Shown: in pieces, positions 8,389 through 52,642 of the stretch
How the letters are laid out: each line of letters opens with the position of its first letter
Numbering within the stretch: the first letter of the stretch is position 1
Assembly: GCA_034387635.1 (NCBI GenBank)
Contig: JAOANU010000003.1
Span: forward strand, 1,792,228 to 1,856,227
Source: Rhodosporidiobolus odoratus
Lineage: Eukaryota > Basidiomycota > Microbotryomycetes > Sporidiobolales > Sporidiobolaceae
Direction of reading: 5' to 3'
DNA: 64,000 nt
Notes under the pieces: generated by a model
Told to the model about the DNA's origin: nothing
Databases searched by the model: none
The model's input: the letters and a program-made list of their open reading frames with translations, nothing else
Program-made: the position numbers and the translations under genes

Positions 8389-10119
8389 CTATTCAACCCT
8401 GCCCGCCACCTTCCTCACTCCCCTCAAAGCCTCAAACAACCTCCTCGCCTCCCCCTCTCCCATCTCCTTCCTCATCCCCAAAGTCTCAACCAGCACCTTG
8501 AGCCCCCTCTCCTCGAGCGAACAGAGGAGAAAGAGGTCCTCGAGGGTTTTTAGGCCGCAGAGGGGGAGGGAGGTTAGGAGGAGACTGTGGGAGGAGGAGG
8601 GGAGGGAGGGGGAAAGGGAAGTGAGGAAGGGGGGGGCAGAAGGCGAGAGCGGAGTGGTTGAAGGGATGGAGAGGATGAGGTCTCCTGATATTGGTGAGGA
8701 CGGTTTGGTAGTTGTTGATGGAGCTGCAGGCGGCTGGTCGGCTAGATGCGAAGTGGCGCTACGGGGCAAGGTTGAGGCCGGAGAGGGAAACGCAGCAGAC
8801 GGAACGAGAGCGGGAGGACGCAGGGGCGGCATCAGAGCAGGCGTAGTAGGCCTAGCTGCGGTGCTGTTTGTACGACAGGTAGACGCGACGACAGCGATGG
8901 AATCGAGGGACGGCGTGGTCGCACTCTTTGATGTGGATGGGAAATGATGGCCCGGCGTGCTAGGTGTAAAGAGGGGATTGTCGCGATTAGTGAGAGAAGC
9001 GTCGAGGGGAGTCTCCCGTTCCTTCCCTTTGCCCTTTATGTCGATCTTGGGCTGCACTTGTGGAGTAGGCGCTTTTGCCCTCCTTTCAACCTCTTCGACT
9101 TTGGTCCTGACCCTCACCTTTTTCACCGCAAACTTCCTGATGGATGACTCGCTCACTCCCCACTTGCCATCCTCTCCTTCTTTTCCCACAATCTCTATCA
9201 GAACCTTCCCCCCGAGTGAGCGCTCAGCGATACCAGCCAGAGAAAAGCGCTTTTGGTCTGGAGAATGAACGAGTTTCGAGAAGAGAAAGTCGGACTGAGA
9301 GGCGAAGGCGTAGAGGTGGAAGAGAAGTGCGGTCGAGGTGGCGAAGCGGAAGTAGTGATGCGGGATCGCAAGGTCGTCAGACTTTGGGCACAGCAAACCG
9401 AAGTCAGAGATGAGCGCGGAGGATTACACAAGACGGAACGACGTACCAGATCGAGTTTCGTCACATCTGTCGCCTCGGCGAATACGAACGACTCGCGCCC
9501 GGTAGTGGAGCCTTGATGTTCGTTGGCCCCTCCGCCCGTTGTACCCTGCACCCTCTTCCTCTTCCGTCGTCTCCCTCCCCTAGGATCACCTCCAACTGCC
9601 TTGAGGCTCATCTTCCTCTTACGCCCAATTGAGGTAGGCGTCGTCGTCGACGGCTCTGATTTGTTTGACGTAGCCGGTCTGCCCCCACTCCCGCCAACTG
9701 TAGGCATCAACTTTGCTAACCTCTTCTCGACGAACGTCTTTGCCGTCGGTTTCTTACTCAATCTGACTTGAGCGGCGCAAGTATGCTGATCGATGAGGGT
9801 ATCTACCACCAAGGCGGCGCCTGGTGCGGAATAGGGCGGGCGTTTGATCGAGGTGGTGAAGGTGCATTTTTCAGAGGTTGGAGGCACGTTTGGACAGCGG
9901 AGGTGACAGAAGACTTGTGGCATGGATTGGACGGTACCGAGTCGCATACCGTGACGTACTGTAATTTGCGAGAGAGGAAGGGTCAAACGCATGTTACGAG
10001 GGTACAGGAACGGGACAAAGAGAAAATGGCCAACGGCAAGCCTGGTAAACCGCGATTTTCCAGTCGTCGATGGTGGTGAAGCGGTCTCCCACCCGAGGGA
10101 AGCTAGCGGAGGTTGCCAT
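8389..10119 (-). CDS. Zinc-module family protein 1 (FAR1/WRKY-GCM1-like N-terminal module, helical C-terminal module)
   Basis: ATG at 10119-10117 opens MATSASFPRVGDRF; an upstream exon near 10258-10380 could extend the N-terminus. A first zinc module reads FTTIDDWKIAVYQAC, then after an intron (about 9950-10036) FCHLRCPNVPPTSEKCTF and IDQHTCAA. This gives a Cys-Cys-Cys-His-x-Cys pattern. A basic patch (GRKRKMS, RRRKRKRV) follows and could be an NLS. A second module (YFRFATSTALLFHLYAFASQ) has the same N-terminal pattern but lacks the Cys/His ligands, so it is probably degenerate. A Pro/Ser-rich linker leads to a C-terminal helical module (SLPLCGLKTLEDLFLLCSLE, then KEMGEGEARRLFEALRG) shared with the other members. 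Stop at 8389. DNA binding is inferred from the module, not shown. Confidence 0.7.
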
Positions 10120-11753: not shown

Positions 11754-14589
11754 ATGCAAGGTTACCCACCTCACCATGACATGTACTCGGGTCACTACCC
11801 TCTCCCTCACCCTACAGATCCTCATGCCTCGATAGCCCATCACCAGCAACAGCAACAACAACAACATCATCAACCACCACCGCAGCATCACCTCCCTCCT
11901 CCTCTCCCACAACTTGCTTCAGGCACAAAGAGGAAGGCCGCACAGGCTCAGCTGGGCGAAGACGACGATGATGAACGACAGGGGAGTGAGGCAGGCAGCG
12001 CCGGTCAGGAGGGTGGACCAGGAGCAAAGTCAAAAGGTAAAGGTGGGGCGAGCGAGTTTGTCAAGAAGCTTTACAGGTACGTCCCGCGACTCAGCGATCT
12101 GCACACGCGGTGCCGGTGTGCAGACAGGATACGGAGAAAGGCGGGACAAGGCGGGCGCAGAATGACCTGTTTTCTTTTCCTCGCCTGCAGAATGCTCGAC
12201 GACGACCAGCACCATGATATTGTGAGCTGGGGTCACGACGGAACGTCTTTTGTGGTCAAGGTGCGATGCTTCCCTCGCTCCTCCTACTCGGCGCTCTGCG
12301 CTGACAGTTATCTTCTTCCTCCGATAGGACATGAACCAATTTACCACCAATATCTTGCCCAACAACTTCAAGCATTCGAATTTCGCTTCCTTCGTTCGTC
12401 AACTCAACAAGTATGACTTTCACAAGGTCAAGAACAACGACGGTGAGGGATCAAGTCAATATGGGGAGAATGTACGTTATCCTTCCTTTCGCTTGGTGAA
12501 CAAGTCCATTGAGCCGCTCATTCTCGCAGACGTGGGAGTTCCGGCATCCGAACTTCCGCGCAGACATGAAGGACAGCCTCGAGAACATCAAGGTGCGTCT
12601 AACCCCCAATCCTTTCATACAGCTTACTTACCCCTTTCCGGCTGCAGCGTAAAGCACCTTCGTCGAAAAAGACGACGAACGCGACTACCAGCGCCAATCG
12701 CATGCGACCCACGGGTATGGACGCGAATGGCGCGGCGGTCGACCCTCTCGCCCCAGCCGCGGTCAACACGGGGGATTTCAACGCCCTGGCGGCTCAGCTC
12801 GACAATTTGGCTCGGACGCAGGCCGCCATGCAGCAGCACATGACAAACCTGAGCCAGGATTATCAGGCTGTTATCGGCGAGATGATGAACTTTCAGAGGA
12901 ACATGGTGGCACAGGATCAGTTGATGCAGAACTTGATCCAATACCTCGTCAACTTGGAAGCAGGTGCGCGTACCTTTCCGTGTTCTGCGTCGCTTTTTGG
13001 AAACTGACTCAATCGTCGAGAACAGACCAAAAAGGCCCTGCCCCTCAAGATCCCTCCGTACCCTTCGTCCCTTCTTCTCAAGCCCAAAAGCTCATCTCCT
13101 CCTACACTGAGGTCGCTCGCGCGTCATACGATCAGATGGCCGACCTCTCTCGCCGCGCCTCCCTCTCCGGCGGCAACTTTGGTAACCTCCCGCCGCTTCC
13201 TCCGCCACCACCCAATTTCGGCCAGTTCGAGTTTACACCCACGAGAGACGACGGGCAGCCACCCTCTGGAGGTTACGAGCCTCAACATCCTGGGCAAGGA
13301 CAGCCTCCTCCGACTCCCTCTCAGCATCACCAGCCGCAACCTCCTCCGCAATCACAGCAACAAGCTCAGCACTCCCCAGTCCAGCCGAATCAGCCGCACC
13401 ACCCTATTGGCGGTCAATTGCCTCCCGCCCCTCTTCCTCAATTCGTGCACCCGGCGTTTGCTTCCGCTCCTCCTCCCAATGCTGCGCCCGCGCCCGCGCC
13501 CGCCCCTTCCACCCCCGCCCCTACCGAACGCCCCTCAATGCCTCACCGACGACAATCCAACGTCCCCGGTTGGGCGGTTCCCCCGCGTGTTCTCCTTGTC
13601 GAGGACGATGCGGTCTGTCGCAAGTTGAGCTCCAAATTCTTGGAGGTGTTTGGGTGTCAGATTGATGTGGCGGTGGATGGGGTTAGTGCGGTGAATAAGA
13701 TGAATGTGCAGAAGTATGATCTGGTGTTGATGGTGAGTTTATCCTTCTTTTCTTTGCGATCTTTTACCTTCGAACATGGAAGAGCTGACAGAGGTTTCCA
13801 ACCCGCGCGCGTCTGTAGGACATCGTCATGCCGAACCTGGACGGTGCGCTTTCTCCTCCCCTACATTGCACTACCTTATTCTCGTGCTCATCCCGCTTTT
13901 GCCCTCACTTGTGCTCCTCACAGGCGTTTCGGCTACCTCACTCATTCGCCAGTTTGACCCTACGACGCCAATCATCTCGATGACGAGCAATAGCGGTCCG
14001 AACGATATCATGACTTATTTTTCGCACGGTGCGTCGAGCTCTAGGCTTCTTGCTTTACTCTTGTGGCGGCCATCATGCACGCGATACTGGGACTGATTAG
14101 GCACCACGACCCTGTCACAGGGATGAACGACATTCTCCCCAAACCGTTCACGAAGGAGAACTTGCTTGGAATGCTCGAGGTGCGTTTCCTTTCGCTTCTT
14201 CCCGCTTAGCGTTGGCTTACCGGAACACAACGTCGCAGAAACACCTCGACCACCTGAAGCTCTTGCAACAAATGGCGGAAATCCCCCGCGCTCTCGGTTT
14301 CACCGACAACCAGATCCAAGACGCCCTCGCCCATTCCGTCGTCGTCTCGACCGGCACAGGCGGGGAACAACAAGTCTTGAACCCGTTTTCGAGTATGGGG
14401 ATCAGCGATCAGGATTATGTAGAGATGTTGCAGGGGATTGCGATGGAGAAGGAGGGGAAGAGGGAGCTGGAGGTGGTTAATCCGGGGGATGGGAGGGCTA
14501 GGTTTCAGGAGGGTGAGTTTGAATGACCGGATTTAGTCTCGTGTTGGGGTTGGTACTGACTTGACGCTTCTCTTTGCGCAGTTCAATAA
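11754..14589 (+). CDS. SKN7: SKN7-type transcription factor: HSF DNA-binding domain plus response-regulator receiver
   Basis: A fungal two-component output regulator for oxidative and osmotic stress. The N-terminus is His/Gln/Pro-rich. The HSF-type domain is spread over exons about 12045-12600: FVKKLYR, MLDDDQHHDIVSWGHDGTSF, then NILPNNFKHSNFASFVRQLN and TWEFRHPNFRADM. A coiled coil follows (NTGDFNALAAQLDNLARTQA, about 12766-12960), then a long Pro/Gln linker. The receiver domain starts at about 13575 (PPRVLLVEDDAVCRKL), has the phospho-acceptor Asp in LVLMDIVMPNLDG split by an intron, and carries the switch Thr/Ser region (PIISMTSNS) and the conserved Lys (LPKPFTKENLL). About ten exons, roughly 690 residues. 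Start is the first ATG of the frame; the last intron joins to a short exon ending in TAA at 14587-14589. The family normally sits in the nucleus and receives phosphate from an Ypd1-type protein. Confidence 0.96.
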
Positions 14590-18090: not shown

Positions 18091-19929
18091 ATGGACGCGC
18101 AAGAAGTTCAGGCTCAGCCGGGAGCGTCTCAGGAAAAGCCTGGGTACGAGGGTCTTGCGGATACAGGACAACAAGTGTGGTGCACCGCTTCACCTTCTAT
18201 TGGCGAAAGCTCATCCGTTGCGTTGGCAGCAGGCTGTCGGCGTAGGTCACTTGGCGAGCAATTATCGCGAGCCTTGCATGGTACCGAGACGCGTCGGTTA
18301 TGGCCCTTTACCCGATGCGGAAAACCTGGAAGACAAGCAGCTGAGACTCTTGACCTTCACCCAAGACGAGCTCTTCCCTCAAGATCTTCCCATCTACCCC
18401 TCTGCCTCGGACCTCTTTGATCACCTCCACCCTATCGTCGTCCCTCTCTCCATCCTACGCGACCTTCCCTCTGAACTCCTCTTCCGATGCCCGTATCATG
18501 ACTGCCCCTTCATGGTCAGGGCTAAACCGGCTTATGGGGGGTGTTTGGTTGACTTGGAGGGGTGCTATTTAACCCATGAGCATGATGAAGGGGAGGAAGA
18601 GCCGCGAGGGTGTGAGAGGCCGGCGGGGTTTGCGATGGACGGGATAAATTGGGATGAGCTGGAAGGGGCGGTGGAAGAACCTGTGGATCCGGCACCGGAC
18701 AAGAAGGACAAGGGAAAGGGGAAAGAGAAGGAATGGTCACCGCCTGAAGAGGCTCCGCCACCCGACGGCCCGTCAGCGAAAAAACGCAAACATCTGGAGG
18801 CTCAGGCGGGATTGCCGAACGCTGAAGGCGGAATGGTCGAGGGAGAAGGCAACGTCGTTACGGTTCGGCGCAAACTGAAGCATACAGGGCGGGCTGTGGT
18901 CAAGACTGACGGTGAAGGCTCAATTCAGGGTAAGCTGTTCGGTCATCAGTCGTCCTATCGCCTTGGGAGCTGACGCGCCTTGTACGTCCAGCGGCGAATC
19001 CTGCGCCGCTACCTCCCCTTGCTTGCGTCAAGCAGGAAGAAGCAGAAGCAAGAGCGGAAGCCGAAGCCAAAGCAGCGGCACAAGAAGCAGAAGCTGCTCA
19101 GCGAGACCTTGTACGTCAATGTTTTCTCGCCTGTACTCGCCTCGGGTCGCTACTAAGTCGCGGATCTGCCTCAGTTGCCTCCATGGCCGTTCAAGCGAGA
19201 CCCTGGTGCAAAGAGCCCGTCTCCTACGCCTACTGCCGGCAAGAGACGGAAACTCGCCCATAGGTCGGAGCCTCCGCCTGAGCCCGAACAGGCCGTGGGC
19301 GCGCAGATGGAGGTGGCACAGGAAGATGTCGTGCGTGCCACTTAGCTTGATCCTGCTCTGGATACTGATCCTTCTCTACTCTGCAGAAGCCGATCATTGA
19401 GCCATTCGAAGCGGCAAAACAACCTTCTCCAGCTCCACCACAACTTCCTCCGGCGGCAGCGGACGAGCAGCCAGTACCAGCGGCTGGCCTAGCTATAGCG
19501 GCGGAGCAACCTAAGCCTGCAGCCGAGAAAGCCGCCAACCCTTTACAGCAACCTCTCACGCCGACCCCGAAGCACCCGTCCCCAGCAGCGTCACCCTCTG
19601 CCTCGCAATCTCGTCAACGTCTCTCTTCCTCACTCTCTCGCTCGTCTGTCCAACCCGCTGTTGCCCGTTCGGCCCCTTCGCCCGAGTTCACCACCTTCCT
19701 CGCTACCCTCGTCTCATCCTCTCAGATCAACCTCGCAGGCTATGCCGTACCGCTGTTCCGGGCAGGGATCAGCAGTGAAGCAGCGCTGTTTGAGTATGCG
19801 GCCCTACTGGGTAAGGAGGACTTCCTTTCGTTGTTGGCGGAGGCGGAAAAGGTCGAGGGGGAGTTCCCGCCGATGGTCAGGCGGTTGATTTGGCAGGTGG
19901 CGGAGAGGAAGATCAATGCGGGGGGATGA
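18091..19929 (+). CDS. Zinc-module family protein 2
   Basis: Start placed at ATG 18091 (MDAQEVQAQPGASQ); the N-terminal exon structure between 18091 and 18340 is unclear and an earlier start is possible. The zinc module lies at about 18390-18590: SASDLFDHLHPIVVPLSIL, then LFRCPYHDCPFMVRAKP and YLTHEHDEG, giving Cys-x4-Cys-Pro-Phe and His-x-His. An acidic/Lys-rich linker with a basic patch (AKKRKHLEAQ) follows, then introns near 18930-18991, 19108-19173 and 19330-19384. One exon is an Ala/Glu/Gln-rich helix. The C-terminal module reads PEFTTFLATLVSSSQINLAG, then SEAALFEYAALLGKEDFLSL and PPMVRRLIWQVAERKI. The gene is divergent from PET100 (375 bp between ATGs). Probable nuclear DNA-binding protein; function unknown. 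Confidence 0.65.
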
Positions 19930-20360: not shown

Positions 20361-21387
20361 ATGAGAGGGGCGACGAGGAGGAAGAGGCGGAAGATGTCGG
20401 AAACGGAAGCAGAGGAGCACGAAGAGCCCTGCTCGTCGCGGCTCGGGTCGACCAACGCGAGGAATGGAACATGGACAGAAGAGGAGAATGCTGCACTTGT
20501 GCGAGGTGTGCCGTCCTCTCTACTCTTTGCCTTCCCTATCAGAACTAAGGCTTGTTTTCGCTTTTCGCAGCGCTCGCCAAAGTCCCAATATAGGACATCG
20601 CACCTACCCTTGTGGCGGACAAATACCTGGACGAAGAGGCATGATCGCGGAGTGTGTCAGAAGAGAGACGGGATACTGCCGCTCGCCAGTTCAGATCGCC
20701 CCTAGACTGAAGGCGTTCAAGAGAAAAATCCAAGGCAATAAGCGCCGTGCGTGCCTCCTTATTCACCTTCTTGGTACATGACTGACGGGCCTTGGCAAGG
20801 AAGCAGTGCGAGCCCTCATCGTCGGCGCAATCGCCGAAACGGCGATACTTGCTGCCAGTCGAGCCTACGACTGGAACGGGGCTTTGTGTCTTGACCGCTT
20901 TCCGTGGACGAGCGGAGGCTTTGGCATCATAGCGGAAACGCCTCAGTCGCAACCGTCACCTATCCGTTACAAGAGTCGCCTCGTCCCCGAGCTTTCTCCC
21001 GAACTTACGCCTGAATGCGAGTCTTCCCTGTCCGAAGTCGACTCTTCTCCCCGGGCCCCGCCGCTAAAGCTGAAACGAGCCCAGTACCGTACTCCGGGGC
21101 CGACGCCGCGCACACCGCCAGCTGCACCTCGTCCATTTCTCCACCTGCCATCCGACTCTTCTGTCTCTCCTCTTCTCTTCGCGGACTCTGTTCCCCCCAA
21201 TCTGCCCTCAATTTTGACACCTCGTCGTTGCAGCTTCTCCCCTTTCGATATCGAAGCCCTCTTGGCGACTTTCTCTGCTGCACACGACTTCGCTCCTGCC
21301 GCCTACGCCCTCTTCGCAAGCGGAATCACGTCCCTCGACGCGCTCTTCGGCCTCTTCTCGCTCGCGCGAAGGGCTTGGGAAGGATGA
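20361..21387 (+). CDS. TEA/ATTS-like DNA-binding protein with the family C-terminal module
   Basis: From ATG 20361 the frame gives a basic NLS-like start (RRKRRKMSETEAEEHEE) and then NGTWTEEENAALVR, which resembles helix 1 of a TEA/ATTS domain. After an intron ending near 20569 the protein reads GQIPGRRGMIAECVRRETG and CRSPVQIAPRLKAFKRK, matching helices 2 and 3. After the next intron (about 20750-20808) comes LIVGAIAETAILAASRAYDW, also seen in the next gene. The C-terminal module reads FSPFDIEALLATFSAAHDF and SLDALFGLFSLARR. The frame stops at 21387, but conserved sequence continues in other frames (LGKDEVDLVVW, then VEARVRLVKKLRI, to about 21566). This suggests two one-base frameshifts. The intron between the two TEA parts needs a weak donor (GTCCTC) for phase. 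Existence likely, structure uncertain. Confidence 0.55.
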
Positions 21388-21593
21388 GGTGGATTTGGTG
21401 GTTTGGTGAGAAGATTGTGCAGACGGGGAGGGAGCAGTTTGGGCGGACCGTTGAGGCTAGGTCCTCTCCTTTTCCTCGTTTCTGACAATTGTAGAGATAT
21501 TACTGACATCCGTTCCGCAGAGTCCGACTCGTCAAAAAGCTCCGGATACAACAATACCTCTTCTGATGATGAAGATGGGAGGCTGGAGGCGGA

Positions 21594-22483
21594 ATGTGGA
21601 AAGACCACGTCTGCTATCAAGTATCGGGTGCCAGCTCCTGCGCGAGCATTACTGGCAGACTGACATTGTTGAAGAAGCGCAACCCCAAGTACAAGCAATG
21701 TAAGTCCTTCGTCTTTGCTACTGTTCTCTTCCGGGCTAACGCGCTCGCCATGGCTTTGTGTATGGCAGTTCAAGCTTTGCTTAAGGGCGCTCCTGCCGAT
21801 CCTGCTGTGCTCGCTGCCGGACTCAGCTATGACTGGAGCAGCACTTTGGGCCCCGACCTCTTCCCGCATACCAAATCTCCTGCAGGCGCATCCAAGTCAA
21901 AGGCTCGCCAACCACATCAACGTCGTCCTGTCAAACGTCCTTTTTCACCGACATCCTCCTCAGCGGATGACAGCTATAGGTGGCAGTCCGACAGCGATGG
22001 CGACGCCTCACCTTCTCTGCAGTCTACACCCCCGAAATTCAAGAAGAGAGCGCGTCGCAGCGGTCTTGGCATCCTTCAGCGCGTTCCTGACCTGCCCAGC
22101 TCTCCCAGCGGACCCTTTCCCGTTCATCAGCTCCTCTCGCCTCCTCTTCCTCCCCATCGGCTCATCTTGCTCTCACGCACGACGCTTCGCCTCTTTCACC
22201 CGTCTCGACCGCGAGGAACCTCAGCCTAACGCAGCTCGAGGCGTTATTTTCGTCTGTCCTCCCGCCAACCTCGCTCATCCTCAGCCACCTCGCGTCCGAT
22301 CTTTCCAGCAGCGGTATCGCATTCCTCGATGCACTCTGTTCTCTCTTGCATATGAATGGAGATCACCTCAACGGGTTCTTGGGATCAGTCGCCCAGCCAC
22401 AAAGGCTAAGTGCGTCAGAAGTGGCGGCGGTGAGGACGGCGGTGGCGACGTGCGAGTTGCAGCTCCGAGGAGACGAGGCTTGA
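21594..22483 (+). CDS. Tandem TEA-like paralog, N-terminal half of domain missing or unclear
   Basis: Downstream neighbour and apparent paralog of the gene at 20.4-21.4 kb. From ATG 21594 the frame reads MWKDHVCYQVSGASS and ITGRLTLLKKRNPKYKQ, aligning with helices 2 and 3 of the first gene's TEA-like domain. After an intron (about 21702-21770) it reads QALLKGAPADPAVLAAGLSY and DWSS, matching the same place in the neighbour. A Ser/Asp linker with KFKKRARRSG follows. The C-terminal module in a new frame, after a probable short intron near 22065-22110, reads LSLTQLEALFSSVLPPTSLI, SSGIAFLDALCSLLHMNGDH and SEVAAVRTAVATCELQL, stop 22481-22483. I see no first half of the TEA-like domain upstream: the equivalent exon has stop codons. 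It may be truncated, mis-spliced by me, or a pseudogene. Confidence 0.5.
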
Positions 22484-22828
22484 GTCTTGAAGACAGAGTA
22501 CGCTGGCTGTCACTGCGAGGGCACCGGAAATAGTAGCAAAGCTTGCCTTGTACACAATGTCGAGACTGGGGGAACCTTCTCAAGTCAATGGAAACGAGCC
22601 GACCACCAGCTGAACTCCGTACATAGACGCTTTGCCTTGCATCAGGCTCGCGCTTGAGGTAGATCTACAGCCCCAAGAAGCGAAAAGCAACATTGGTCTG
22701 GCGGGAAGTCCCGTGGGAAAGCCGGTGCTCCTCTTCGCTTGCTTCTTCTCGTTACTTACTTGCATTGCTCAGCTTACTTAGCTCGAGCCCGCTCCCAAAG
22801 CTTCACCGAGGTCATACAAGTATGCCCA
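22484..22828. other. Intergenic region, no gene seen
   Basis: Separates two family genes on the plus strand. It presumably holds the promoter of the gene starting at 22829. Confidence 0.5.
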
Positions 22829-24344
22829 GCAACTCGTCTGCCCGCCTTCCCAGCGTGGGTACCGTCTTCCCCACTCTTAACGCCTTCAAGCTTGCCGCCC
22901 ATCAAGCAGCTCGTGAGTCTCGTCCACAAGGTATACAGATACACCCGCTCGAGATCTCTGAACAGAGCTGCTCCCGTCGCAGACAATGGGGGCTACCAGT
23001 TACGAATCTTCGACTCCAATCGCGACCGACAAGCTCGATTGTCCTGCATCGGCCTCGGCACCAGGAAACAACTGCGCAGCAATGGCCGCCAGCGTTGTAC
23101 CTGCCAGGTATATGCAAAGAAGGATACTGCAGGAGGCTTCAGCGTACGCAGCGTCACCAACCAGCATACATGCGACCTCGCTTGTCGCACAACAAGCAAC
23201 TACGAAGCGCTGAGAACGACGGGAGTCGAGGTGAAAGACCTCGCGGGCGTACTGGTGCAAGAGCCGACAAGAAGAGGATGGAGGAGTAGATCATGCGACC
23301 ACTCAGGATTGGCGGACGTAAGCCAGGTCGAAGACGAAGACGACGATATTGACCGCGAAGGTAAAGCTTACTCGCGAAAAAGCGTAGCCGATCAGGAGTC
23401 ACGCATCTGAAGCTGACTACCTTGTCTTCCTAGACTCCGAGGCCAGCTACGGGGCGCACGAGACTTCGAGCGATGAGAACGAGTTCTTTGTCTCTGCGAA
23501 AAAGGGTAACCGCAGCAACTATACGAAGACAGAATTGAGAGCAAAATCTTGGGCTCTTGCCGAGGCGAGTCTTCTGCTTCGAGCTCACCCAGTGAAAAGT
23601 GGCTAATCTGCTCGGCTTATGCAGACTCGTCGACTTGGCCTTCCGGTCCTCGACCAAGCTTTTCCCAGCCTTCTTGCCGTCATGCTCCACGTCTACGCCT
23701 GGGCACTTCAGCAAGGACTCTTTCTCACGCACAATAGCTACATCGAGCGCATAGTATGGGTTTGTCGTCCAAACAGCGGAACTGGCCGCTGCACTTTCGA
23801 GATCACGGCAAGCGGATTGGCAGACGGTACCTGGAGCATCACTCACGTCCATCCCAATCACGACGAGCGCCCTCACCTCGATCGCGACAAGGTTGAGCCT
23901 GACGCTTCGATCCCGAAAAAAGCGAACCTTTCGCTTCTTCCTGTCCCCTCATCACCCTCTCACGGTTCGTCCAGCCCGGTTACACTTTCTCCTCCGTTGA
24001 CTGCGAGTTGCTCCCAGCCTCGCTCTGTCCTACCAACTCCGCACGCTGAAGGAAACGTTATGCCTTCCTCCCTTCAAGCTCCCCCCTCCTTGTCCCCGGA
24101 AGACCTCAGTTCTTTCTTCTTGGCCCTCTTCCCAACCGCGACAAACGCTTCGGTCGAATCCTTTTCTAGTATCCTCACTACCGGAGGTGTCTCTACCGTA
24201 CAAGACCTCGCCCATCTCGTTCAGCTTGAAGAAGACACTCTGCGCAACTTGGTAGAAGAGGTCGAGCAGAGCAAAGGGTTGAAGGAGCAAGACTCGAGGG
24301 AAGCCAAGAGGACGCTTGAAGCGATCAGGACTACATTCGGGTAG
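22829..24344 (+). CDS. Zinc-module family protein 3, two intact tandem modules
   Basis: The clearest member. ATG 22829 opens MPSNSSARLPSVGTVFPTLN. An intron (22910-22983) joins in phase to HNGGYQLRIFDSNRDRQARL. The first module has LSCIGL, RCTCQVYAKK and NQHTCDLAC. An acidic linker follows. The second module reads AFPSLLAVMLHVYAWALQQG, VCRPNSGTGRCTFEI and THVHPNHDERP (about 23660-23880). Both modules therefore show Cys ... Cys-Thr-[Cys/Phe] ... His-x-[Cys/His]-type ligands after a helical F-x-[TS] segment, as in FAR1-type domains. A Ser/Pro linker leads to the C-terminal helical module (SLSPEDLSSFFLALFPTAT, VSTVQDLAHLVQLEEDTL, EAKRTLEAIRTTFG), stop 24344. Probably a nuclear DNA-binding protein. 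No transposase catalytic domain is present, so it is not an active MULE element. Confidence 0.75.
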
Positions 24345-26048: not shown

Positions 26049-28207
26049 TTAGCCACCCTCGACAAACGGGTTACCCCGGGTGAAGTGGGTCAACTCCTGC
26101 AAATTTGACGACGAAAAGTGCTGATCAGTTTCAGCGGGATTAGTCACACAAAAACATATTCAGCGTACCTTGAACTTCGGGGTACACGAATAGCCATGGA
26201 ACTCGAAGCTACAGGGGCGAGTCAGCTATAGGTCGAGCAAGAGGATGGGAAGAGGTTGGCGCACTTCTCTTCCTGTTTCGGGTTGCAGGTGCATCGACTA
26301 CCTCGTCCGGGTTGCGGGCAGTGTTGAAAGGGCTCGTGCCGGTAGCCGATGTCTTGGAACTGCGAAAGAAGATAAGGTCAGCGGGGCGTTGGGCTTGCAA
26401 TTCGGGTCGCAATGGATGTATACGGAAGCGGGACTTGCGAAGTGAAACTCTTCGGGCTTGAGGAAGAGGCCGGCAGCGATCGAGTGCACGGGCGCTGCAT
26501 GCGTAGGATAGTCAACTCGAGAAGCTACGCAAATGATCGCAATACTTAAGCCCACGGCTGTGACCGAGGCGAGAAAAAGAAACAGCGTACCATCTCCCCA
26601 GCGCTCGTAGAAGAACCCGCCAGCTTTGTCCAGGTAATCAAAGTATGCTCGGTATGCTTCCGACCTCCAGAGATCAAGCGAGGCAATTTCGAAATTGGAC
26701 CTGCCGGGCGACGCGGTCAATCTCACAAGAGGGGTGAGAAGTGCTTGCGCAGAGGTAGAGACGAACCAGAAGTGACAGAGGGTATAGCTTTTACCGCTGT
26801 CATTCGATAGCCAGTTCATCATGTTCGGCTTGGCGAGAAAGTGCGAGTTCTTGTCGATGAATTCTGCACAGAAACAGCTTCAGCAAAGCCAGCGTGACGG
26901 GAAAAGAAGTAACGCACCTCGAGTCGTATCCCACAGCGTTGTGATGGTATCCCTATACTCGTAGAGTGATACAGTGAAGCCTGTAGTGAAGACGCTAAGC
27001 CGAAAATTCTGCGCGTCGAAGCAGAGAGCGCGGGTAAGAACGATCGACGTACCATACTTTTTCTTCTGATCCTTCATCAGCTTGAAGACATCATAGTCGA
27101 CATCGCAGACTGAAGGAGCATCACCATTGGACGGAAGAGGAGATAACGAAAGGAGTGGCGCCAGAGCGAAAGATGTATGCGGAAGGCATATGTCAGTAAG
27201 TCAGCCTAGAGAACCAGTTTTCAGGCTGTTCATGAAGACGCACAGAACTTGACGCTAGGCTCGACACGCCAGTAGTACTCAAGGTCATCGAGCAGAGGAT
27301 GCCGCCAGAAGAAGCCGGATTCTGCAGAGTCAAGCGGGGTCAAGCTCGGAAACAGCAAAGGAAGTGCAGAACGAAACGAACGGTATCGGCACATCTTCCT
27401 GCGAGGCAAGAGCGAGAGGGCCAGATATTGTCAGAGGGAGAGATCTGGCGCATGCAACGACGACGCACCTGTATGGGACGCTTCCGCCATATGGAATGGG
27501 CTTTTGCCCCATCTCGTTAATCGCTTTGGTGGCCTTGTCCTTGTCGATCCAATCCGGCATCTCCTTGCCCCAGTGCTCTTGCGGGACTTGCCCATAGCTC
27601 GTTTCGCCCGAGGCTACTTGCGATGTCCGCTTCTTGAAGTCGTCTGCAGAAGGAACGCATCAGTGAGCAGGAGCGGGGAAAGCAGGGCAAGCGAGAAAGA
27701 CTGACCGGAGAAGGTGCCATCGTTCAGGAAGATGTAGGGGTAGTGATAGCGCTTGTTGAAGCGGTCTGCAGAGATGAACAGAATCATCAACCCGACAGGG
27801 TAAGTGCGCACTGCGTTCAGTGAGCGAGAAGGCGGAGAAAGAAAATAATAATAAGACAGACCTTCAACCTGCTGGATCGATGGCAAGATTTCGTACAGGT
27901 CGCTTTCGCGGACCAAGATGACGAAGGCGGCCTTGACTCGCTCGTCGGCCGTGCTGCTAGCGTTCCTGCCCGTCTCCTCTTCTGTCTGCTCCCATCGCAT
28001 TGTTGGCCTTGGTTCCCACGGCTGAACTCTTCTCCCGCCATACCACTGTTCGCTGTCCTTCTGCTTGAGTCCGAGGTGTACTTTGGCTTGGTCTATCGAG
28101 GTGTGGTGGGCATACGAGGGTGAGGTTGCTTGACCCAAGAAATGGAGGAGAATGAGGGTGATTGCAATTGCTCCGCCGTATCTCGCGTAGGGTGAAGATG
28201 TTAGCAT
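26049..28207 (-). CDS. KRE2/MNT1/KTR-type alpha-1,2-mannosyltransferase (GT15)
   Basis: ATG at 28207-28205 starts a short cytosolic tail and one membrane anchor ([16 protein letters not shown]), the type II topology of Golgi mannosyltransferases. The catalytic domain follows in about ten exons: [20 protein letters not shown], then [38 protein letters not shown], then [57 protein letters not shown] and [20 protein letters not shown]. The NFEIA glutamate matches the residue viewed as catalytic in Kre2. The last intron joins GYSCTPKFK to [15 protein letters not shown] and TAA at 26051-26049. These enzymes extend O-linked and N-linked mannans using GDP-mannose in the Golgi. Which KTR member this is cannot be told here. 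The gene is divergent from the GMC oxidoreductase, with 629 bp between ATGs. Confidence 0.93.
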
Positions 28208-32310: not shown

Positions 32311-33702
32311 TTAGGTGACGATCCACCCCATTTGCCTCGCGTCCTTCAAAAGCTTCTTCAGCGACTCGACCTGAGGCTTCGACCCTGAACGTGACATGGC
32401 GCTCCGACATGCGGAAGAACTGACAAGCTCGTCGAGCAGCGCGTTGAGAATAGCGGGTTCGAGCGAAGCGAGCGTGATCATCGAAGAGGTCGAGTCGAGT
32501 CCGATTGAGGCGAAGTGCGGTGCGAGAGAAGCGAGTGAGGGATGAGAACCGACGAGGAAGGCGTGCAGGGCGGAATCTGCTGGAGCGGGAGCGGGGTTAG
32601 AGTTTGAGGCTGAGACGGAGGGAGCGGCGGCTAATGCTGGTATCGATGTCGGTGTAGGAGAAGAAAGAGAGGTGAACGGCGGGGTGAAGAAGGACGACGA
32701 GAGTGGGAGAGAAGCGGAGGGTGCAGCAGTCGAAACTCTGCGAGTAGGGGTCTGCGAGCGAAAGCTTCGTGAGCTCGTTCGGTCTCGTTCCGAAAATTGG
32801 CCGTGGAGAAACAGCGTGCCGCGACTTTACCTTCTTCGATTTGATGTAGGCAGCCTTGACTTCCGGATCAAAGATGTGCGGTCGCCAGCCAGGATCAAAC
32901 AGTTGTGGCGCCGGAGGATGGTTGTGCTCGCCCAGTGGACCACCCACAACCCAGGCTTCCTCCATTCCAACGACCTCGTGACGAGCCTGAAAGCGAAACG
33001 GGCACCGCTTGTCGGCGGACGGTTCAACGCGATAATGCGCGCGCGCACAGGCTAGGTCGCAGCACTTTTGGTTGATGGGCTGCAAGTTGTAGCCGTACGT
33101 ATCAAGGTGAGGGACAGCAACTGCAATCTGGAGTGCCTTGAAGGATGGAAAGCGAGTACCGGGAGCTGGGAAGTCGACGGGATGTTGCTGAGAGTGGCAA
33201 AGTAGGTGGGTCAGCTTGTGCTTTGGTAGGCTGAACAGATAGCGGGCAAGGAAGGCTTACCGGGGAGCTTTCTACCTTTTTCTTCTTTGCCGGCCTGCCC
33301 GATTCATCCGAAGCGGAGTGTTCCGAACGCCCAGCGGTGCGATTCGCTTCGTCCGCTCCATTACCATGAGAGTGCTTCCAACAGGTCCGGTCTTCGTCCA
33401 GAACCCAATGGTGTTCTAGATTCCTCACCTCGACCCGGAAGGGGCACCCCATGGCAGGAGCGTCGTGTTTGCGTCGCCCGCACCGCATACTGGCTGCGTA
33501 TAGATCGCTGCGATAGATCGCGGCGGGCCACGCATACTGGTCGCGCAAGGCGGCTCGACATGCAGAGAAAAAGTCGGACGATGAGGTGAAGGAGGTGCGA
33601 GAATGGAAGAGAATGGTCTGGCGGGATGAGGACTGTCAGAGCGAGGGGTAATCAGCAGTGTAGGGATAGATGGTAGCAGGGCGTGGCGTGACTTACGGCC
33701 AT
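32311..33702 (-). CDS. Zinc-module family protein 4, two intact modules
   Basis: ATG at 33702-33700; after MA an intron joins in phase to SSSRQTILFHSRTSFTSSSD. The first module reads FFSACRAALRDQYAWPAAIY, MRCGRRKHDAPAMGCPFRVE and CWKHSHGNGADE. A KKKKVE basic patch follows. After introns the second module reads GTRFPSFKALQIAVAVPHLD, CARAHYRVEPSADKRCPFRF and PLGEHNHPPAP. Both modules have Cys-x(n)-Cys-Pro-Phe-Arg and His-x-His ligands, the best fits to a FAR1 or WRKY-GCM1 zinc pattern in the window. A Ser/Pro/Ala linker leads to the C-terminal module (SALHAFLVGSHPSLASLAPH, MITLASLEPAILNALLDEL, then VESLKKLLKDARQMGWIVT), with TAA at 32313-32311. All splice phases read well. Probable nuclear DNA-binding protein of unknown target. 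Confidence 0.8.
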
Positions 33703-39213: not shown

Positions 39214-41380
39214 TCACGGCTGCTTCACCATCTCGAGCAACAACTTCGTGCAATCCCTCACATCCTCCTGCTCGAGGTGACCTTCGTTCTTGAGCTTGTC
39301 GAGGAACTGGTAGAGGGTGTCCTTACCCAAGAGAGCCAGACCGGCGAGGTCCGGAAGAAACTTGACATCGGTCAGGGTTAGGAAGTGACAAAAGGTCAAG
39401 ATTTCGCGGGCTGGGGAGGAAGGGAAGAGCTCGAGGAGGCATTGGGTTACGGACGATGGAATGGGGGTTTGAGCATTTCGAGGAAGCTGCTGGTCGGCGA
39501 CTGGCGATGCGGGGCCTGTAGGCGGGCGGGCAGAGGAAGGCGTGGCAACGGCGACGGGAGAAGAGGGAGACGAACGAAGGCCCGGCCGCTGCACCTCGAC
39601 GCTTGTAGCGCCAGGCTCACCCTCGCGCTCGTCCTCCCTTGCTTGCGCCAATCTTGCGGGAGAGGCGACAAAATGGTCGTGCTGGCCCCTCATCTCCTAG
39701 ATTTCCCGTCCTCCCGGCGAGGACAGCTTCGCCCTGACTTCGTACTCGCAGCTGTGTCCAGCGGCGCTGTGACGGGCGCACCTGAGCTGCTTCAAAAGTG
39801 AGGAAGTGAGAAGCGAACGCGGAAGGTGAAGGAGGATTGGGTTGCGACCGCGTGGAGGAAGAGGAGAAGATGTCGGCGAGTGTCGAGAAAGTGACCAATC
39901 TGAGGCGGTGGAATGGCGCCGTTCTGTGAGGAGCATGTTCGCTGGTCCGAAACTATGAAAATATATGTTGAAGAGGGGAAATGCGCACTTTGATGAGCTC
40001 GCCAATCTCTTCCTCAGGTTCCTCCCTCGATGGCACATCAAGCTGATCCGTCCCCGGTATCCTCAGTCGTACCTGTGCCGCGGTATGGTACACAAACACA
40101 TCTTGTCATTATGCGAGTCCTTCCCGTGCGCCCTCCTCCATAGTCCATCATTTCCTCCGACAGCCTTGACGAACCAGCGGCAGCATTCATGGGCGCGATA
40201 GCGAGGATTGGCCCGGTGACATTCGAGGCGGAGAACATGGACACTAGACGCGGAGGAACGGCGGAAGATGGAGAACCCGCTTTGCGCCGCGAAGGCGTGG
40301 ATCTCGAGGTAGAAAGCGACATGTGAAGGGAAAGTGTCGGCAACTGTCGGGAGAGTTACGAGGCGCTTCTGTTCACGAAAGGGGTATAAGCAGCGGAAGG
40401 ACAAGATGAACAGGAAAAGAATGACTGCTTGCTGTACCTTCGCCTCAACCTCCTTGTGGGCCGGAAAGGCCAGCTATACCTTTTCCTTTGGTAAGGGAGG
40501 ACTGGCGCCCCAAGAGCGCTTCTGTTTCTTCGTAACCTGAGCTTCATATCGCTCCACAGGCTTCGCTTCGCGACCGGAAGAGCGAGAAGCCTTGCTGGTA
40601 CCGGGAGGCGAGAAAGGAGCCGTTCCGGACGCGTCGTCTTCCTCGCCACTGTCCGTCCCGTCCGAGCTGTCTTTGTCGGGATCGTTGCGCTTGGGCGCGT
40701 AAGATTTCCTGGGCGCGCGCACCACTCTCCTCTGCTCCGCAGGCTGTTCCAGCTCGGCCAAAGTTTCTGTCGCGTACTTGATAGCCGCTTCCTTCGCGTT
40801 CTGCCAAATCTGGGGCGAACACGAATGCGCGTCCGTCGAAAGTTGAAGCTCGAAGATTAAGGGCTGTGAGCCCGTGACGGCTCTGGGTCCGACCGCGTAA
40901 ATGCAAGGATTTGACGAGCGGATTCTGGTGCTGTTGTAGGACAACGGAGGGTGCAATCCCTGTTGAGAGCCGACTCGACAGTGCCGAGACTCGAGCCTTG
41001 AGCGGCTGCGAGGACGTGGGCATCGTCAGTACAAAATGTCAACAAAGAGGGAAGGTCGACGTACCGCAAGCCTCATTCACGCCTTGTTTGAACTGGCAGG
41101 TAGGCGTGTTGTATCTTTGGCGAAATACTCCTTTGACCCCCTTTGAGTGTGCGGGAAAAGCATACTGCTTGAGCCAATGGACGTCGAGCGGTAAGAAGCC
41201 GTGGCCTTGGCACTCGGTCCCAGACTCAAGTGCGGCAGGGACACTTTGCAGCGCTGCAAAGGCGTCGGCAGTAGCTTGGCAGCGGCGACATGACGCGAAA
41301 AAATTGGGAAGAATGAGGGAAAAGAAAACGAACGCTGGCGAGCAAGGCCGGCCGGCCGAGCACTTCGGCCCTACGCACAT
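39214..41380 (-). CDS. Zinc-module family protein 5
   Basis: Start tentatively at 41380 (MCVGPKCSAGRP); the first 340 bp may hold a diverged first module (CQGHGFLPLDVHWLKQYAF, YNTPTCQFKQGVNEAC). An exon at 40474-40956 has a basic/acidic linker (RRVVRAPRKSYAPKR, then DGTDSGEEDD). A later exon holds a clear module: VADTFPSHVAFYLEIHAFAA, QSGFSIFRRSSA, LECHRANPRYRAHECCRWFV and GKDSHNDK. A further module-like segment follows: LLLFLHAVATQSSFTFRVRF and CARHSAAGHSCEYEVRAK. The C-terminal helical module is clear: VTQCLLELFPSSPAREILTF, LPDLAGLALLGKDTLYQFLD and EDVRDCTKLLLEMVKQP, stop 39214. This gene may carry three modules; splice phases in 39.7-40.0 kb are unsettled. Confidence 0.62.
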
Positions 41381-43043: not shown

Positions 43044-45336
43044 ATGTCCCCCAAAAAAGTTATCATGTCTACGTCGCTGTCGCCGTTACATAGCGACGCA
43101 GGCAGCCACGCGCAGCTGATGAGCGGCCTCGGCGGATCAGACGGCAGACTCGAGACGCAGACTCATCAATCGGACGAGGACGAAACGGTCGAGAAGACGG
43201 ATAGAGGTGAGTTTTTCCGTCCAGCTGCCACGATTGCCCGTCGACGTGGCTCAGGCGCTTCGACCTCGGATCCTCGCCAGCCAGCAAAGCCTCAAGCCTC
43301 GCCTGCGCCTTCGACGGCGGAGGTCTAGTCGCAGTCGCAGTCGCAGTGGCACGCCGGGAGCCAAGCAACGAACCAGAACAAGCACAAATGGAAGGGCAGC
43401 ACCAAGATTTCGCCTCTTCCCCTCGACTCGAAATCGCCCTCCACCCTTTCCCTTCGTCCGGGAACTCGCTTTCCTTCGGGACGCGTAGCACACAACGCCT
43501 TCGACAAGGCTTGTCATGACCATGGCTTTGCCTTCTTGTCCTCGGCCAACAAACACTCATTCTCAAGCGCGGCCTCTCCGAAGATCCTCAGTTCAAGGCC
43601 CGCCTGACTCTCGTCTACTCCAGCGGCAAAGACCCGCCTAAGGGCCTGGCGAAATGCCCCTTTCGCGTCGTCATCATAGTCAAGGTCAAGGAGGGCGTGC
43701 AGGACCTGTGGGAAGTCGCAGAAGTGTATGGCGGCCCTCACTCGCACGCTCGCATCAAGCACCTCGGTCCATGGCACGAGCCGGACATCATGCAACCGGT
43801 GCCGCGACTCGCGAGGTCTCGCAGGCGTAAGAAGAATGGGTACAAGCGCGAGCTTCTCAAGCCGGGCGAGTCGGATTGGTCGGCGGAATATTGCAGCTCG
43901 TCGGAGGACGGAGACCAGCTGGAGGAGCAGAGTGGTGAGCGAGTACGCTCCGTCATGCCTGCTCCCGTCGAGTTACTCACCTACCGTCCCGTGCCTTCGT
44001 TCAGCCTCGCTGCTCTGACAGCCCGAGGAAGCCCACTGCATCTCCTTCGCTTTCTCGCTCAGCCTCGCCGGTCCCGTCCCAAAAATTAACTCATCACCTA
44101 CCCCTTCCCACGACGCTTCGCACCTTCTCCTGTTTTGAGAAGTTTTTGCGGCTAAGGTTCGGGTCGCTAGCGATGGCGTTTTCCCTCTGTCCTCCAATGG
44201 ATTCCCCAAATCCTCGCTTTAGAGCTGCGGTGCGGAGAACGGAAGAGGCGTGAAGAGACGCGGCGGGGCGTGCCCTTGGACTGTTGAGGTCATCAAGTGC
44301 GTTGACGGACTTTGGCGCATCGACGAAGACCAGCGCTGCTGGAATCACCAGGGTCATGGTCTACCGGTTGTCGCCGCGAATCAGTTGAGCGGTGGTACGC
44401 AGGAGCAGGAGCAACGCCTAGTGACGGTACGCCTGGCTCTCCCTTGGCTGCCACGAACATACTGAGCTTCGCTTCATACTGCAACGCAGGCCAAGAAGGT
44501 CAAGAAGAAAGCGCGCTTCGCCGACCCGCCAGAAGGTCAGGCTAGAGTCACTGCCTCGCCCTCGATGCCATCTGCCGCTCGTGTCAGCCCCGCCCCATCT
44601 GCAGCCTCTCCCGCGCCGAACGATTAGGCGAGAAAGGGGATACCGTTCGAGAAGCAGGCAAGTCTAGCCTCGATTGACGAGCTGCATGTTGCTCTTACTC
44701 ATTTCCTTACACGGCAGACACCTCCTGCGCCCGCTTGCGATCTCGACCTGACGCTGGTTGACAGTGACAACGATGTCAGGTGAGCTTCTCAGTAACCCGT
44801 GCATCGCTTGCCCTCCTCCATCATTGTCTACAAACGCATACTGATGGGAGCTTGCTTACTAGCCGAGTACGAGCACCCACTGCGGGGATCTTGCACTCAA
44901 GGCCGAGCAAGGCAGTCCGCTTGACGCCAAACCTTCTTCCCTCGCCTTCGAAACCTACCTGGGCACTCTCGAACCGCTCCGCGAAGGCGATCCCGCTCGT
45001 ACCCTCAGTCGCTTCGCACCCGACTTATGCTCTCTGGGCTTCGACCTCGACGACATCAAGGTGCTGCGTCCGCAGGACGTCGACAAGCTTGTTGACCTTC
45101 TCATCGAGGGCTTGCAGAAGCGTCCGGCCGGTCTATCTGTCAAGAATCGCCTCGAGGTGGACGTGTTACGCTCGAGACTGAAAGTCAGGTTGCAGAGGTG
45201 GGACCAGTGCGATAGGTCGGAGGAGGGTGGACGGAATGGCCGGAACTGGAGGAGATGTTGGAAGTGGAGAAAAGCGCTTGATGATGAAGTACGGTCGACG
45301 ATTCAACTCTGTAGACTGTCACCTCTTCCCTGCTGA
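43044..45336 (+). CDS. Zinc-module family protein 6, two modules (first one diverged)
   Basis: ATG 43044 opens MSPKKVIMSTSLSPLHSDAG with an acidic start. The first module reads RPGTRFPSGRVAHNAFDKAC and HDHGFAFLSS. It then continues in another frame with ARLTLVYSSGKDPPKGLAKC, PFRVVIIVK and YGGPHSHARIKHL. The first Cys is missing and the frame changes near 43540, so there is either an indel or an odd intron. A basic patch RSRRRKKNGYKRE follows. The second module lies at 44220-44360: SCGAENGRGVKRRGGACPWT, VEVIKCVDGLWRIDEDQRC and WNHQGHG. The C-terminal module at 44930-45200 reads AFETYLGTLEPLREGDPART, LGFDLDDIKVLRPQDVDKLV and DVLRSRLKVRLQRW. The stop is taken at 45336; the last 40 codons are doubtful. 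Several introns lie at 44430-44490 and 44640-44870. Confidence 0.62.
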
Positions 45337-49073: not shown

Positions 49074-50182
49074 TTATGCGCGAACGGCCGTGTCGTACCT
49101 CACGCGCTCAGCATTCTCTGCCTCGACCTCGAGGACGTGAGGCTTGATGTAGCGCTTGTCCTGCAGTCGATAAAGGGCGAGAAAAAAGGGGGGGGGGGGT
49201 TGAGAAAAGCATGAGGACAGGAAGGAGCGCCGAAGAAAGGCGCAAAACCGAGTGTTGAGGACGGTTGAGGGGATGCGGGAAAGGTCGAAGAACAATGAGG
49301 CGTCGAGGACGGCGGGATAAGCGCAGGGGTTGCGGGCGATGAGCGATGCAGAGAAATGAGCGCGTCAGTGACACTTGAGCGGCTTACGAGCCGGTCAAGC
49401 AGAGGGCTTGCGATCCAAGCGGGAGGAGCGTAGAGAGAGAGAAAGGACGAGAATCTAACGGACCTCTTCCGGCTTGACCCACTCGGCCTTGGGCAGCTCC
49501 TCGTGCGCAATTGACGCCATCGACGCAGTACGGAGACGGAATGCGCGGTCGTAAGCCTCGCGTTCAGAGATGCGGCCAAGAGCCTGTGGACGTGCAGCGT
49601 AAACAGTCAGCAAACTGCTTCGACGAGAAAAAAAGGTAGCTTGTAGCCCGGTCATTCCGCCAGGGGGCAAAGCGATCCGTGTCCAGTCGGTTGGTAAGAC
49701 CGCGTAGCCACCGCTCACTTCTCGCACTGCCGTGGCCGCGGACATCATCTTTTCCTTTTTTCCGCCGCCGCATCCTCCATCTCCTCAAGGTGCCCACACT
49801 CCTCCTGCCGTCTCCGCCTTCGCGCCACGCATACCATTGGGCGAGGGCAGCGAGAAGCGTCGCTGTGGCTAGGCGGGTCGCAGGGTGAAAGGCGGCAGAA
49901 GGTGAAAAAGAAGATTGTTCTGGAGTCGGCGCGCGCCGCATTTCGTGTCGACCCAGTACTTCGCCGGGAACTATACAGTCTGATGGTGCCGCTGGACGTG
50001 AAGGAAGCGATTCTGACCTTCTGGACGACGGCAGACTCCTCTAGAAGGATGTCATCATAAAGTAGCCCGTGCGCCCGGTAACCAGCAAGGTTTGCGTAGC
50101 GATCTGCGAGTGGTTTGAGCATCTTGTACAGCCCACGCGACTGCTTGACCTGCTGGGCGAAAGAAGGACCGAGAACCGACAT
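49074..50182 (-). CDS. QCR7: Cytochrome bc1 complex subunit 7
   Basis: Three exons give about 125 residues, matching the usual 125-130 of Qcr7. Exon 1 (ATG 50182-50180) reads MSVLGPSFAQQVKQSRGLYK, LADRYANLAGYRAHGLLYDD and EESAVVQK. Exon 2 (about 49460-49583) reads ALGRISEREAYDRAFRLRTA and ELPKAEWVKPEEVR. Exon 3 reads DKRYIKPHVLEVEAENAERV and ends YDTAVRA at 49074. This is the matrix-side 14-kDa subunit of respiratory complex III, needed for cytochrome b assembly. Intron 2 contains a run of about 12 G (49188-49200). The promoter, exon 1 and most of intron 1 are duplicated 1.5 kb away in the pseudogene copy. Confidence 0.93.
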
Positions 50183-50336
50183 GCTGAGGAGGACGAGAAA
50201 TGGGATCAGTATGGGAACGACAGTCAGGGCTCTGGAGGCCGCCGGTCGTCGTTGGGCGCGCGCGAGTGCTCGTTGTGTGCCCAATGCCGCAGAATGCAGA
50301 CCTACCTGGAAGTGTGTGTGAAGGGCGAGCGGCGGA
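49702..50336 (-). repeat. Direct repeat, copy B (live QCR7 5' half)
   Basis: Partner of 48187-48837. Outside these limits the two loci diverge sharply. Confidence 0.93.
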
Positions 50337-50665
50337 AGATGAGGAGGAGTTGATTGGACGTCCTCGACTTCCGATTCCTCTCTTCTCGCTTTGTAATAGA
50401 GGGAGACCATCATGGGCTAGTACACAGCAACTCGCAGGCTCTGAACACATCCGCCGATGTCGAACCCGACGACTCGCTTACGATCTATTTCCTCCCTTTC
50501 TCGTTCTCGCCGGAAGCGCACGCAGACGGATAACCTCGATACTTGAGTCCGCCAAGTATCACATACAAGCTACGCTGGCTTACAGAGTCCTTCTTGGCGA
50601 CCGAAACGAGTTTTCTCGTCGCAGCAGAAAAGCCCCCTGACTCCAGCCGCTCCCAGCTAGTCTGC
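50337..50665. other. Intergenic region upstream of QCR7
   Basis: Unique sequence beyond the repeat, ending at the stop of family protein 7. No gene seen. Confidence 0.5.
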
Positions 50666-52642
50666 TCAAGCCCCGTTCGTCGGCGGATTTGGCTCACTAG
50701 TCGGAGGGTCTCCCGCATCCTTCGCCGCACCGGGAGGGGGCGGAGGGTTGGCGATTGTCGAAGCCACCGTGGTCGAAAGCTGAGAAGGACGATATTGAGG
50801 AGTCGGAGAAGGGTCGACGTCCATCGTGATAGCCTGCGGCATGCGGGTGGACAGGGTGGAAGAGGAGGCCGAAGGAGAGCGGGAGTGCGCATTGGGTCGC
50901 GCGGTGCCGTTAGACAGCAGAGGGCGGCTCGGAGGGATCTCCTTTGGCAATTCCGACCTCTTGACCCCGCTAACATACGTCCCGGTATCGCCATTTTTTC
51001 GCTTCGTCTCGAGGGCTTCACTCCATGCTTGCTTTCCTCGCTCCTTCATGAGCCGCCCGAACTTGAGCTTCGGAAAGAGCCCGATCGACTGGTCGGGAAG
51101 AGCGCTGAGGAATTCTTGCTGCAGCTTTTCGTCTTCGGCGAAGTACTGCGTAGGTGTGCAGGAGACGGCAGGCGATGCGAGAAAGGTGGCGAGTGGGAGG
51201 AGTAAGGGATCGCCGAGAGCGTGCAAGAGGGCGAGCCATTCGGGCAGGGCGACGGGGTCGGCAAGCGCGACGACGGGGGCTAACACGGTGGAAGGGTTGG
51301 CCGAAGGAGAGGGCTGTCGACTGCGAGGTTGCGACTGCGAGCGTGCCGACTGGGTAGGCGTTAGTCGTACCGAAGTGGGGTAGGCGGAAGGAGCGGTGTA
51401 TGGTGAGAGCAGGGAGAGAGGTTGCGAGGCACGCTGACGGGCGGGGGATTGCGGTTTCGACTGATAGGGTGAAGCTGTAGTAGGGCGGAAGTAGGTGGGA
51501 GGGTGGACAGGCGGAAGAACTGTTTGAGAAGGCTTCGTCGGGAGCCCTAAAGCCGGCACGATTTGCGATTGAAGCTCGATCCCGCGTTGAATGAACGGCG
51601 GTGCGAGAGCGCGTTCACTCTCTGCCACAGGTAAAAGGGCCAGCTTGCTCGGCATGGGGTTGACGCGAGGCGCTTTACCAGCGAGCGACTCGACCTGCAC
51701 GAGTGCTTCCGGTGCTTGAGCAACGCTGTCGCCACTTGCCGAACGAGCGCGCGGTTGTGCAGGGCGCGGACGAGTGCTCGATTCCGGATAGGGCCCTGAC
51801 GTCGTCTTGCCGAGCCAAACGGGGAGGACGGATCCATGGGTAATATCCGGCTGCGCGTCGAGGGGATGCCGGCAACGGTAGTAACAGCCCTCGCGGGAGT
51901 CTGCTGTTTATATAAACACAGATTAGCCACATAAGAGCTGCAGGCTGTCGAAGAACAGACTCGCCCTGCCCGCCTCTCGCAGACTTTAGTTCCCAGCCTC
52001 CCTCCTTGCACTTCTTCAGCTTGAGAATAAAGGGACACCCAGCCTTGCGGTAGGAGCAGGTGACGTGCATATACGCCGACGAGACCTTGTGGGTGCGATC
52101 TTCGGACACCACAAGTTCTACGTTGCGCGCTCTGCAGCATGAAAAGGTGCAGAGGTAAGCTGATTTTCCAAAGCAATGTGAAAGGCGACGCACTCGGCGA
52201 TCTGACCCGCGAGAGTCACGAAGCTCCGAGGTTTCGAGAATACGATGCCTTCAAGCTCATCGAAGCTGCGCTTCGACCCCGTGTTAAATCGCGCCGGTGC
52301 TTGCTGAGCCGGATCTTGGGCTTCATGAGGAGGCATAGGCGACGGGTCGATGGCAGCCGAAGGTGACGCCGACATGAAGGGTGGATCGCCATCGGACACG
52401 ACCTCGTCCTCTTCTGAGTCGGAGGAAGCAGCCATGAAGGAAAAGTCCTGCCGGCCGCGGCGATCTTGCGAAGGCAATCGACGGAAAAAAGAAGGGAAAA
52501 AAACCCATGTCAGCTTGCAGCAGTTTTCTCTTTCTGGCCGCCAACAGGCTGGCCTATCTGTTGCCACCTCGACCTGCGCGGAGCTGTGTAACTCACCTCG
52601 TAGAGCCATGGCGGCAGGCGCAGAGTCAGTCGCAGCGCTCAT
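50666..52642 (-). CDS. Zinc-module family protein 7
   Basis: ATG at 52642-52640 gives MSAATDSAPAAMALR, then an intron; the following exon is acidic (SSDSEEDEVVSDGD). The module reads FVTLAGQIAECVAFHIALEN, then after an intron RNVELVVSEDRTHKVSSAY, MHVTCSYRKAGCPFILKLKK and GGWELKSA. After another intron it reads CYYRCRHPLDAQPDITHG, where the His ligands could lie. A long Pro/Ser/Gln linker follows. The C-terminal module reads PEWLALLHALGDPLLLPLAT, AEDEKLQQEFLSALPDQSIG and a further basic helix (KFGRLMKERGKQAWSEALET). Unlike other members it carries about 100 more residues after this, Pro/Ser-rich, to the stop at 50666. Divergent from BOL1. Confidence 0.66.

Follow-up and report, generated by a model that had tools for sequence, protein, structure and literature searches.

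Among the described systems closest to the genes considered here are proteins of the WRKY-GCM1 zinc superfamily, in which the ligands typically follow the order Cys-Cys-His-His/Cys. AFT1 and AFT2 are iron-responsive transcription factors of ascomycete yeasts, the WRKY family is marked by the signature WRKYGQK, and WRKY-GCM1 modules also occur in MULE transposases. Here we examine a 64,000-nucleotide stretch of the genome of the red yeast Rhodosporidiobolus odoratus (hereafter, the window), which lies at the right-hand end of C3, a contig of 1,856,227 bases in an assembly of 24.8 Mb and 45 contigs. A first-pass annotation had assigned seven genes (g1-g7) one common layout: zinc modules of FAR1 or WRKY-GCM1 type, a disordered linker and a short helical C-terminal end, which we call the tail. 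We find that these genes belong to a larger, highly diverged family concentrated on C3, and that its tail also occurs on a TEA-like neighbor. The family probably comprises nuclear, DNA-binding, oligomerizing regulators.

A diverged family of putative zinc-module genes

Each of the seven genes was read in three frames, and modules and C-terminal ends were cut by hand. Together with two additional genes described below (genes A and B), they are arranged as follows (window coordinates):

8392..10119, minus strand: g1, intron-split module at about 9750-10119, module-like piece without cysteines at 9134-9381, tail at 8392-8664
18359..19926, plus strand: g2, one module at 18359-18610, tail at 19660-19926
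20361..21387, plus strand: gene A, TEA-like domain at about 20569-20724, tail piece at 21232-21363; the profiles find no zinc module
21526..22483 (start approximate), plus strand: gene B, tail at 22211-22453
22822..24344, plus strand: g3, modules at 22822-23200 (with an intron) and 23625-23894, tail at 24078-24341
32311..33702, minus strand: g4, modules at 33333-33629 and 32885-33190, D-P-x-W-R-P motif, tail at 32314-32595
39214..41027, minus strand: g5, modules at 40911-41027 (partial), 40078-40368 and 39700-39905 (split frame), tail at 39217-39480
43447..45210, plus strand: g6, modules at 43447-43774 (split frame) and 44253-44351, claimed tail at 44920-45210 without independent support
50666..52642, minus strand: g7, module at about 51975-52145, claimed tail at 50990-51274 without independent support

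The module motif, written in the style of the first-pass annotation as F-x-[ST] ... C-x(4-18)-C-x-[FWC] ... H-x-[HCN], exceeds chance. In six frames of 216 kb of C3 its binned count was 20, whereas 100 shuffles averaged 0.8 and reached at most 4. These 20 matches represent 15 distinct places, of which four fall in the window, 10 within the upstream 102 kb and one in the 50 kb beyond. Profiles trained on the window extend this picture, with 15 module places and eight tail places in the upstream region (1.690-1.792 Mb) scoring above every reversed decoy, and no match to either profile above decoys in the next 50 kb (1.640-1.690 Mb). The upstream genes found in this way had been held out of training. 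Motif matches at C3:1745947-1746153 and 1697003-1697122, which the profiles do not list, are possible extra members.

Profiles trained outside the window, on 13 modules (12 from C3, one from C15) and nine tails (eight from C3, one from C15), recovered the tails of g1 (45.8 bits), g2 (E 0.0011), g3 (59.6 bits), g4 (47.2 bits) and g5 (31.2 bits) above the best reversed decoy. The corresponding module profile recovered the second module of g3 (23.4 bits), both modules of g4 (45.3 and 32.9 bits), a g5 module, the second module of g6 (21.0 bits, E 3.3e-5) and, marginally, that of g7 (12.7 bits, E 0.012, versus 10.4 bits, E 0.068, for the best decoy). Thus, each of g1-g7 has at least one independent match, to module or tail. 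When each gene was left out of training in turn, the modules of g3, g4, g5 (26.1 and 18.0 bits) and g6 (18.5 bits) passed, g7 tied with a decoy, and g1 and g2 failed; the tails of g1, g3, g4 and g5 passed, whereas those of g2, g6 and g7 failed. Median identity is about 20% among modules and 22% among tails. The profile comparisons thus indicate that the zinc-module family is real and larger than first reported, with the full layout in most members. The count of seven was too low, there being two more tail-bearing genes at 20.4-21.4 and about 21.5-22.5 kb.

Tails occur at 17 places on C3 within about 152 kb (1.692-1.844 Mb), nine in the window and eight upstream, and 15 of the 17 are backed by profiles blind to them. 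This concentration had escaped the first-pass annotation, as had the tail on a TEA-like protein. For the tail at C3:1748640-1748858, the preceding 2 kb yielded no zinc module. Two members off C3 were confirmed, at C15:113.6-115 kb and C1:1663-1666 kb, and whole-genome protein searches, one of them from the C15 member, gave no further place outside C3 at E <= 0.01. Because these searches used single-sequence, mostly cluster-derived queries and scored few candidates, the family size given here is a minimum, and the C3 concentration may be overstated. The window ends where the contig ends, so the cluster may extend further; at 63701-64000 the contig stops within an open frame, and its last 300 bases have no telomere-like repeat.

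Some internal structure is visible within the family. Five genes, namely g4, three upstream neighbors and the C1 member, have D-P-x-W-R-P following their second module. In the module tree, g4, 1783, 1789 and C1 form one group by their first modules (0.87), and g3, C15, g5 and 1738 form another by their presumed second modules (0.73), as if module doubling had preceded gene doubling, several nodes of the tree being weak.

Putative zinc modules of WRKY-GCM1-like type

In an alignment of 16 modules, partly picked by profile (A3), the first Cys is present in 16/16, the second Cys in 16/16, the His in 15/16 and the second His in 13/16, giving the ligand set and order typical of the WRKY-GCM1 superfamily. 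A module profile searched against the Protein Data Bank (PDB) matched only AFT2 (E 0.0035) and WRKY18, and AFT2 also heads the list in a structural comparison. On this evidence the modules are WRKY-GCM1-like, as the first-pass annotation had held, with AFT2 the nearest solved relative found, and they would be expected to bind zinc. The AFT family, which has its own Pfam model, is absent from the Pfam listing of the 16 modules at E <= 10; a distant kinship to AFT may nevertheless exist.

The FAR1 half of the original label was not supported. The best match was that of the first g3 module to the zinc half of the FAR1 profile PF03101 (E 0.08, 14.1 bits versus a cut-off of 28.1), and PF03101 gave no row for the other nine proteins scanned or for the 16 modules of the alignment. 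A genome search with PF03101 found no match, but its controls were silent as well. A table in PMC4469406 gives FAR1 counts of zero for three Microbotryomycetes, one genome being said to lack many conserved genes. In Pfam scans with cut-offs shown, no module or tail exceeded any cut-off. Thus, Pfam does not name this family, which would add WRKY-GCM1-like regulators to red yeasts.

One tail on two kinds of putative DNA-binding protein

The tail is predicted to form a five-helix domain and is perhaps SAM-like, although the evidence for this is weak. The outside-trained tail profile also found the two extra genes at 20.4-22.5 kb, scoring 18.3 bits on the tail piece of gene A and 40.4 bits on the tail of gene B. 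Gene A matches the TEA family PF01285 at E 8e-4 and 20.1 bits, below the cut-off of 25.1, and is the weakest of four places found in an own-genome TEA search, the strongest being C3:1327359. In hand-cut pieces, its alignment with a C26 TEA protein, one that exceeds the PF01285 cut-off, continues past the TEA domain. By hand alignment, the part of gene B 5' of its tail resembles both gene A and the C26 protein, and all three have a D-W-x3-L-x2-D-x-F-P motif; the gene B piece matched no Pfam family. The tail profile had no match in the 2.8 kb read at the C26 TEA gene or at the TEA place C1:2401500, the two TEA places that this check covered. The protein at C26:190300-193100 has a TEA domain and a long low-complexity tail, which the family tail profile does not match.

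Because gene A carries the tail of the zinc family, the sequences suggest a constant tail joined to DNA-binding parts that vary. One tail on two kinds of putative DNA-binding protein in adjacent genes would be a concrete case of part-swapped regulators.

Protein searches gave no relatives outside the genome

A protein search with g4 scored 7606 candidates, none at E <= 10, and one with a five-protein alignment scored the 7995 candidates sharing most words and gave no relative. These searches need exact shared words; low-complexity linkers may crowd out true relatives, and fast-evolving orthologues can be missed. As a database control, the acetolactate synthase of the window was 92% identical to that of R. 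odoratus and 84-87% identical to those of four other Rhodosporidiobolus species; the database thus holds this enzyme from five congeners, whose proteomes there may be incomplete. A scan of viral contigs gave two pattern matches and no relative. In the literature searched, which did not include the main review of WRKY-GCM1 fingers and any basidiomycete expansions it may report, no description of such a family was found. In passages of a study of 35 Sporidiobolales strains (PMC12093110), the terms 'zinc finger', 'transcription factor' and 'FAR1' do not occur. As far as the protein searches could tell, then, the suggestion of a lineage-specific set stands.

Genomic surroundings

Family members lie on both strands and are mixed with ordinary genes, as first described. 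These include:

13136-13957: response-regulator gene that looks SKN7-like
27614-28207: KRE2/KTR-type mannosyltransferase
36014-36661: C2H2 zinc finger
49745-50413: 14-kDa ubiquinol-cytochrome c reductase subunit
55950-57827: acetolactate synthase

Mating-type markers lie on other contigs:

C17:385349-386339 and C20:92014-92136: pieces of STE3-type pheromone receptors, and the homeobox match that exceeds its cut-off

By those markers, the window is not a mating-type region.

What the family may be

The explanation that we favor, and consider somewhat probable, is a locally expanded, fast-diverging family of nuclear DNA-binding, oligomerizing regulators. The N-terminal WRKY-GCM1-type modules would grip DNA, and a disordered linker would connect them to the five-helix tail. 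By holding copies together as dimers or oligomers, the tail would let individually weak modules bind DNA jointly and with raised affinity, by analogy with LEAFY, and the proteins would function in sequence-specific regulation. In LEAFY, according to PMC4844672, a SAM domain aids the access of this DNA-binding protein to weak sites or to closed chromatin.

Several parts of the claimed layout were not confirmed. The tails of g6 and g7 are recovered by neither the leave-one-out nor the outside-trained profiles. The modules of g1 and g2 show the motif, yet each profile test places them below its best decoy; that of g1 rests on the motif and on profiles that contain it, and that of g2 on the motif, while the g2 tail, found by the outside-trained profile, fails when g2 is left out. 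The shared layout claimed for all seven genes therefore holds in part, each gene having an independent match and these four elements (the g6 and g7 tails and the g1 and g2 modules) having no independent support. Moreover, the g5 module near 39.8 kb and the g6 module near 43.56 kb each span two frames with no joining intron detected, and an in-frame TAG at 39697-39699 precedes the last exon of g5 unless an intron removes it. The split frames and the TAG may reflect unseen introns, assembly errors or decay. A looser set, in which a core family is accompanied by unrelated g6 and g7 with lookalike C-terminal ends and some members are pseudogenes, would account for the missed tails and the split frames. 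We regard it as possible but not likely, given that the outside-trained profile matches the g6 module (E 3.3e-5) and, marginally, the g7 module (E 0.012; best decoy 0.068).

The split frames of g5 and g6 and the in-frame stop of g5 would also suit remnants of MULE-type transposons, that is, DNA-binding modules left after loss of the catalytic core, some of them decaying. WRKY-GCM1 modules are reported in MULE transposases (PMC4350883), and the genome carries, at C5:501894-502022 and flanked on either side by open frames, a MULE-like transposase piece (PF10551, 21.7 bits versus a cut-off of 27.6). The module profile gives no match to this C5 element, however, and transposase descent leaves the tail on the TEA-like gene unexplained. 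In line with the first-pass annotation, the window pieces scanned, from incomplete gene models, gave no MULE or other transposase row. We judge this origin distinctly improbable, and the suggested domestication from transposons is unproven. By eye, the frame upstream of the C5 piece has Cys and H-x-H residues that give it the look of a zinc module, which the family profile does not match. An arms-race or selfish-gene cluster, acting in mobile-DNA silencing or in drive rather than as ordinary transcription factors, would fit the local concentration, the median identities of about 20% (modules) and 22% (tails) and the protein searches without relatives. Those searches can miss orthologues for want of exact shared words, however, and having no orthologues leaves no test of selection; we think this alternative unlikely. 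The local concentration nevertheless makes conflict with mobile or selfish DNA testable as a driver.

We also tentatively raise a bolder reading, which is doubtful at present: this one chromosome stretch might be a factory of new DNA-binding proteins, coupling a constant helical oligomerization tail to variable DNA-binding parts. The variable parts would be WRKY-GCM1-like modules in changing number and the TEA-like domain, and divergence would be rapid enough to make relatives difficult to find within the genus itself.

Comparison with known systems

The modules' similarity to AFT2 (PDB 4lmg) is weak, and unlike AFT2 the proteins described here have one to three modules each, a helical tail and no link to iron. 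Unlike the WRKY domain (AtWRKY18, AtWRKY1), none of the 16 aligned modules shows WRKYGQK. The FAR1 domain belongs to plant FAR1/FHY3 and MULE proteins, whereas the pieces scanned here have no transposase domain. Gene A is akin to the TEA/ATTS factors (PF01285) in its TEA-like domain and differs from them by ending in the tail of the zinc family. The likeness to the plant transcription factor LEAFY, which has a SAM oligomerization domain (PDB 4ude), is one of analogy. If the stretch does generate new DNA-binding proteins, it would be comparable to the KRAB zinc-finger clusters of animals or to a selfish-gene arms race.
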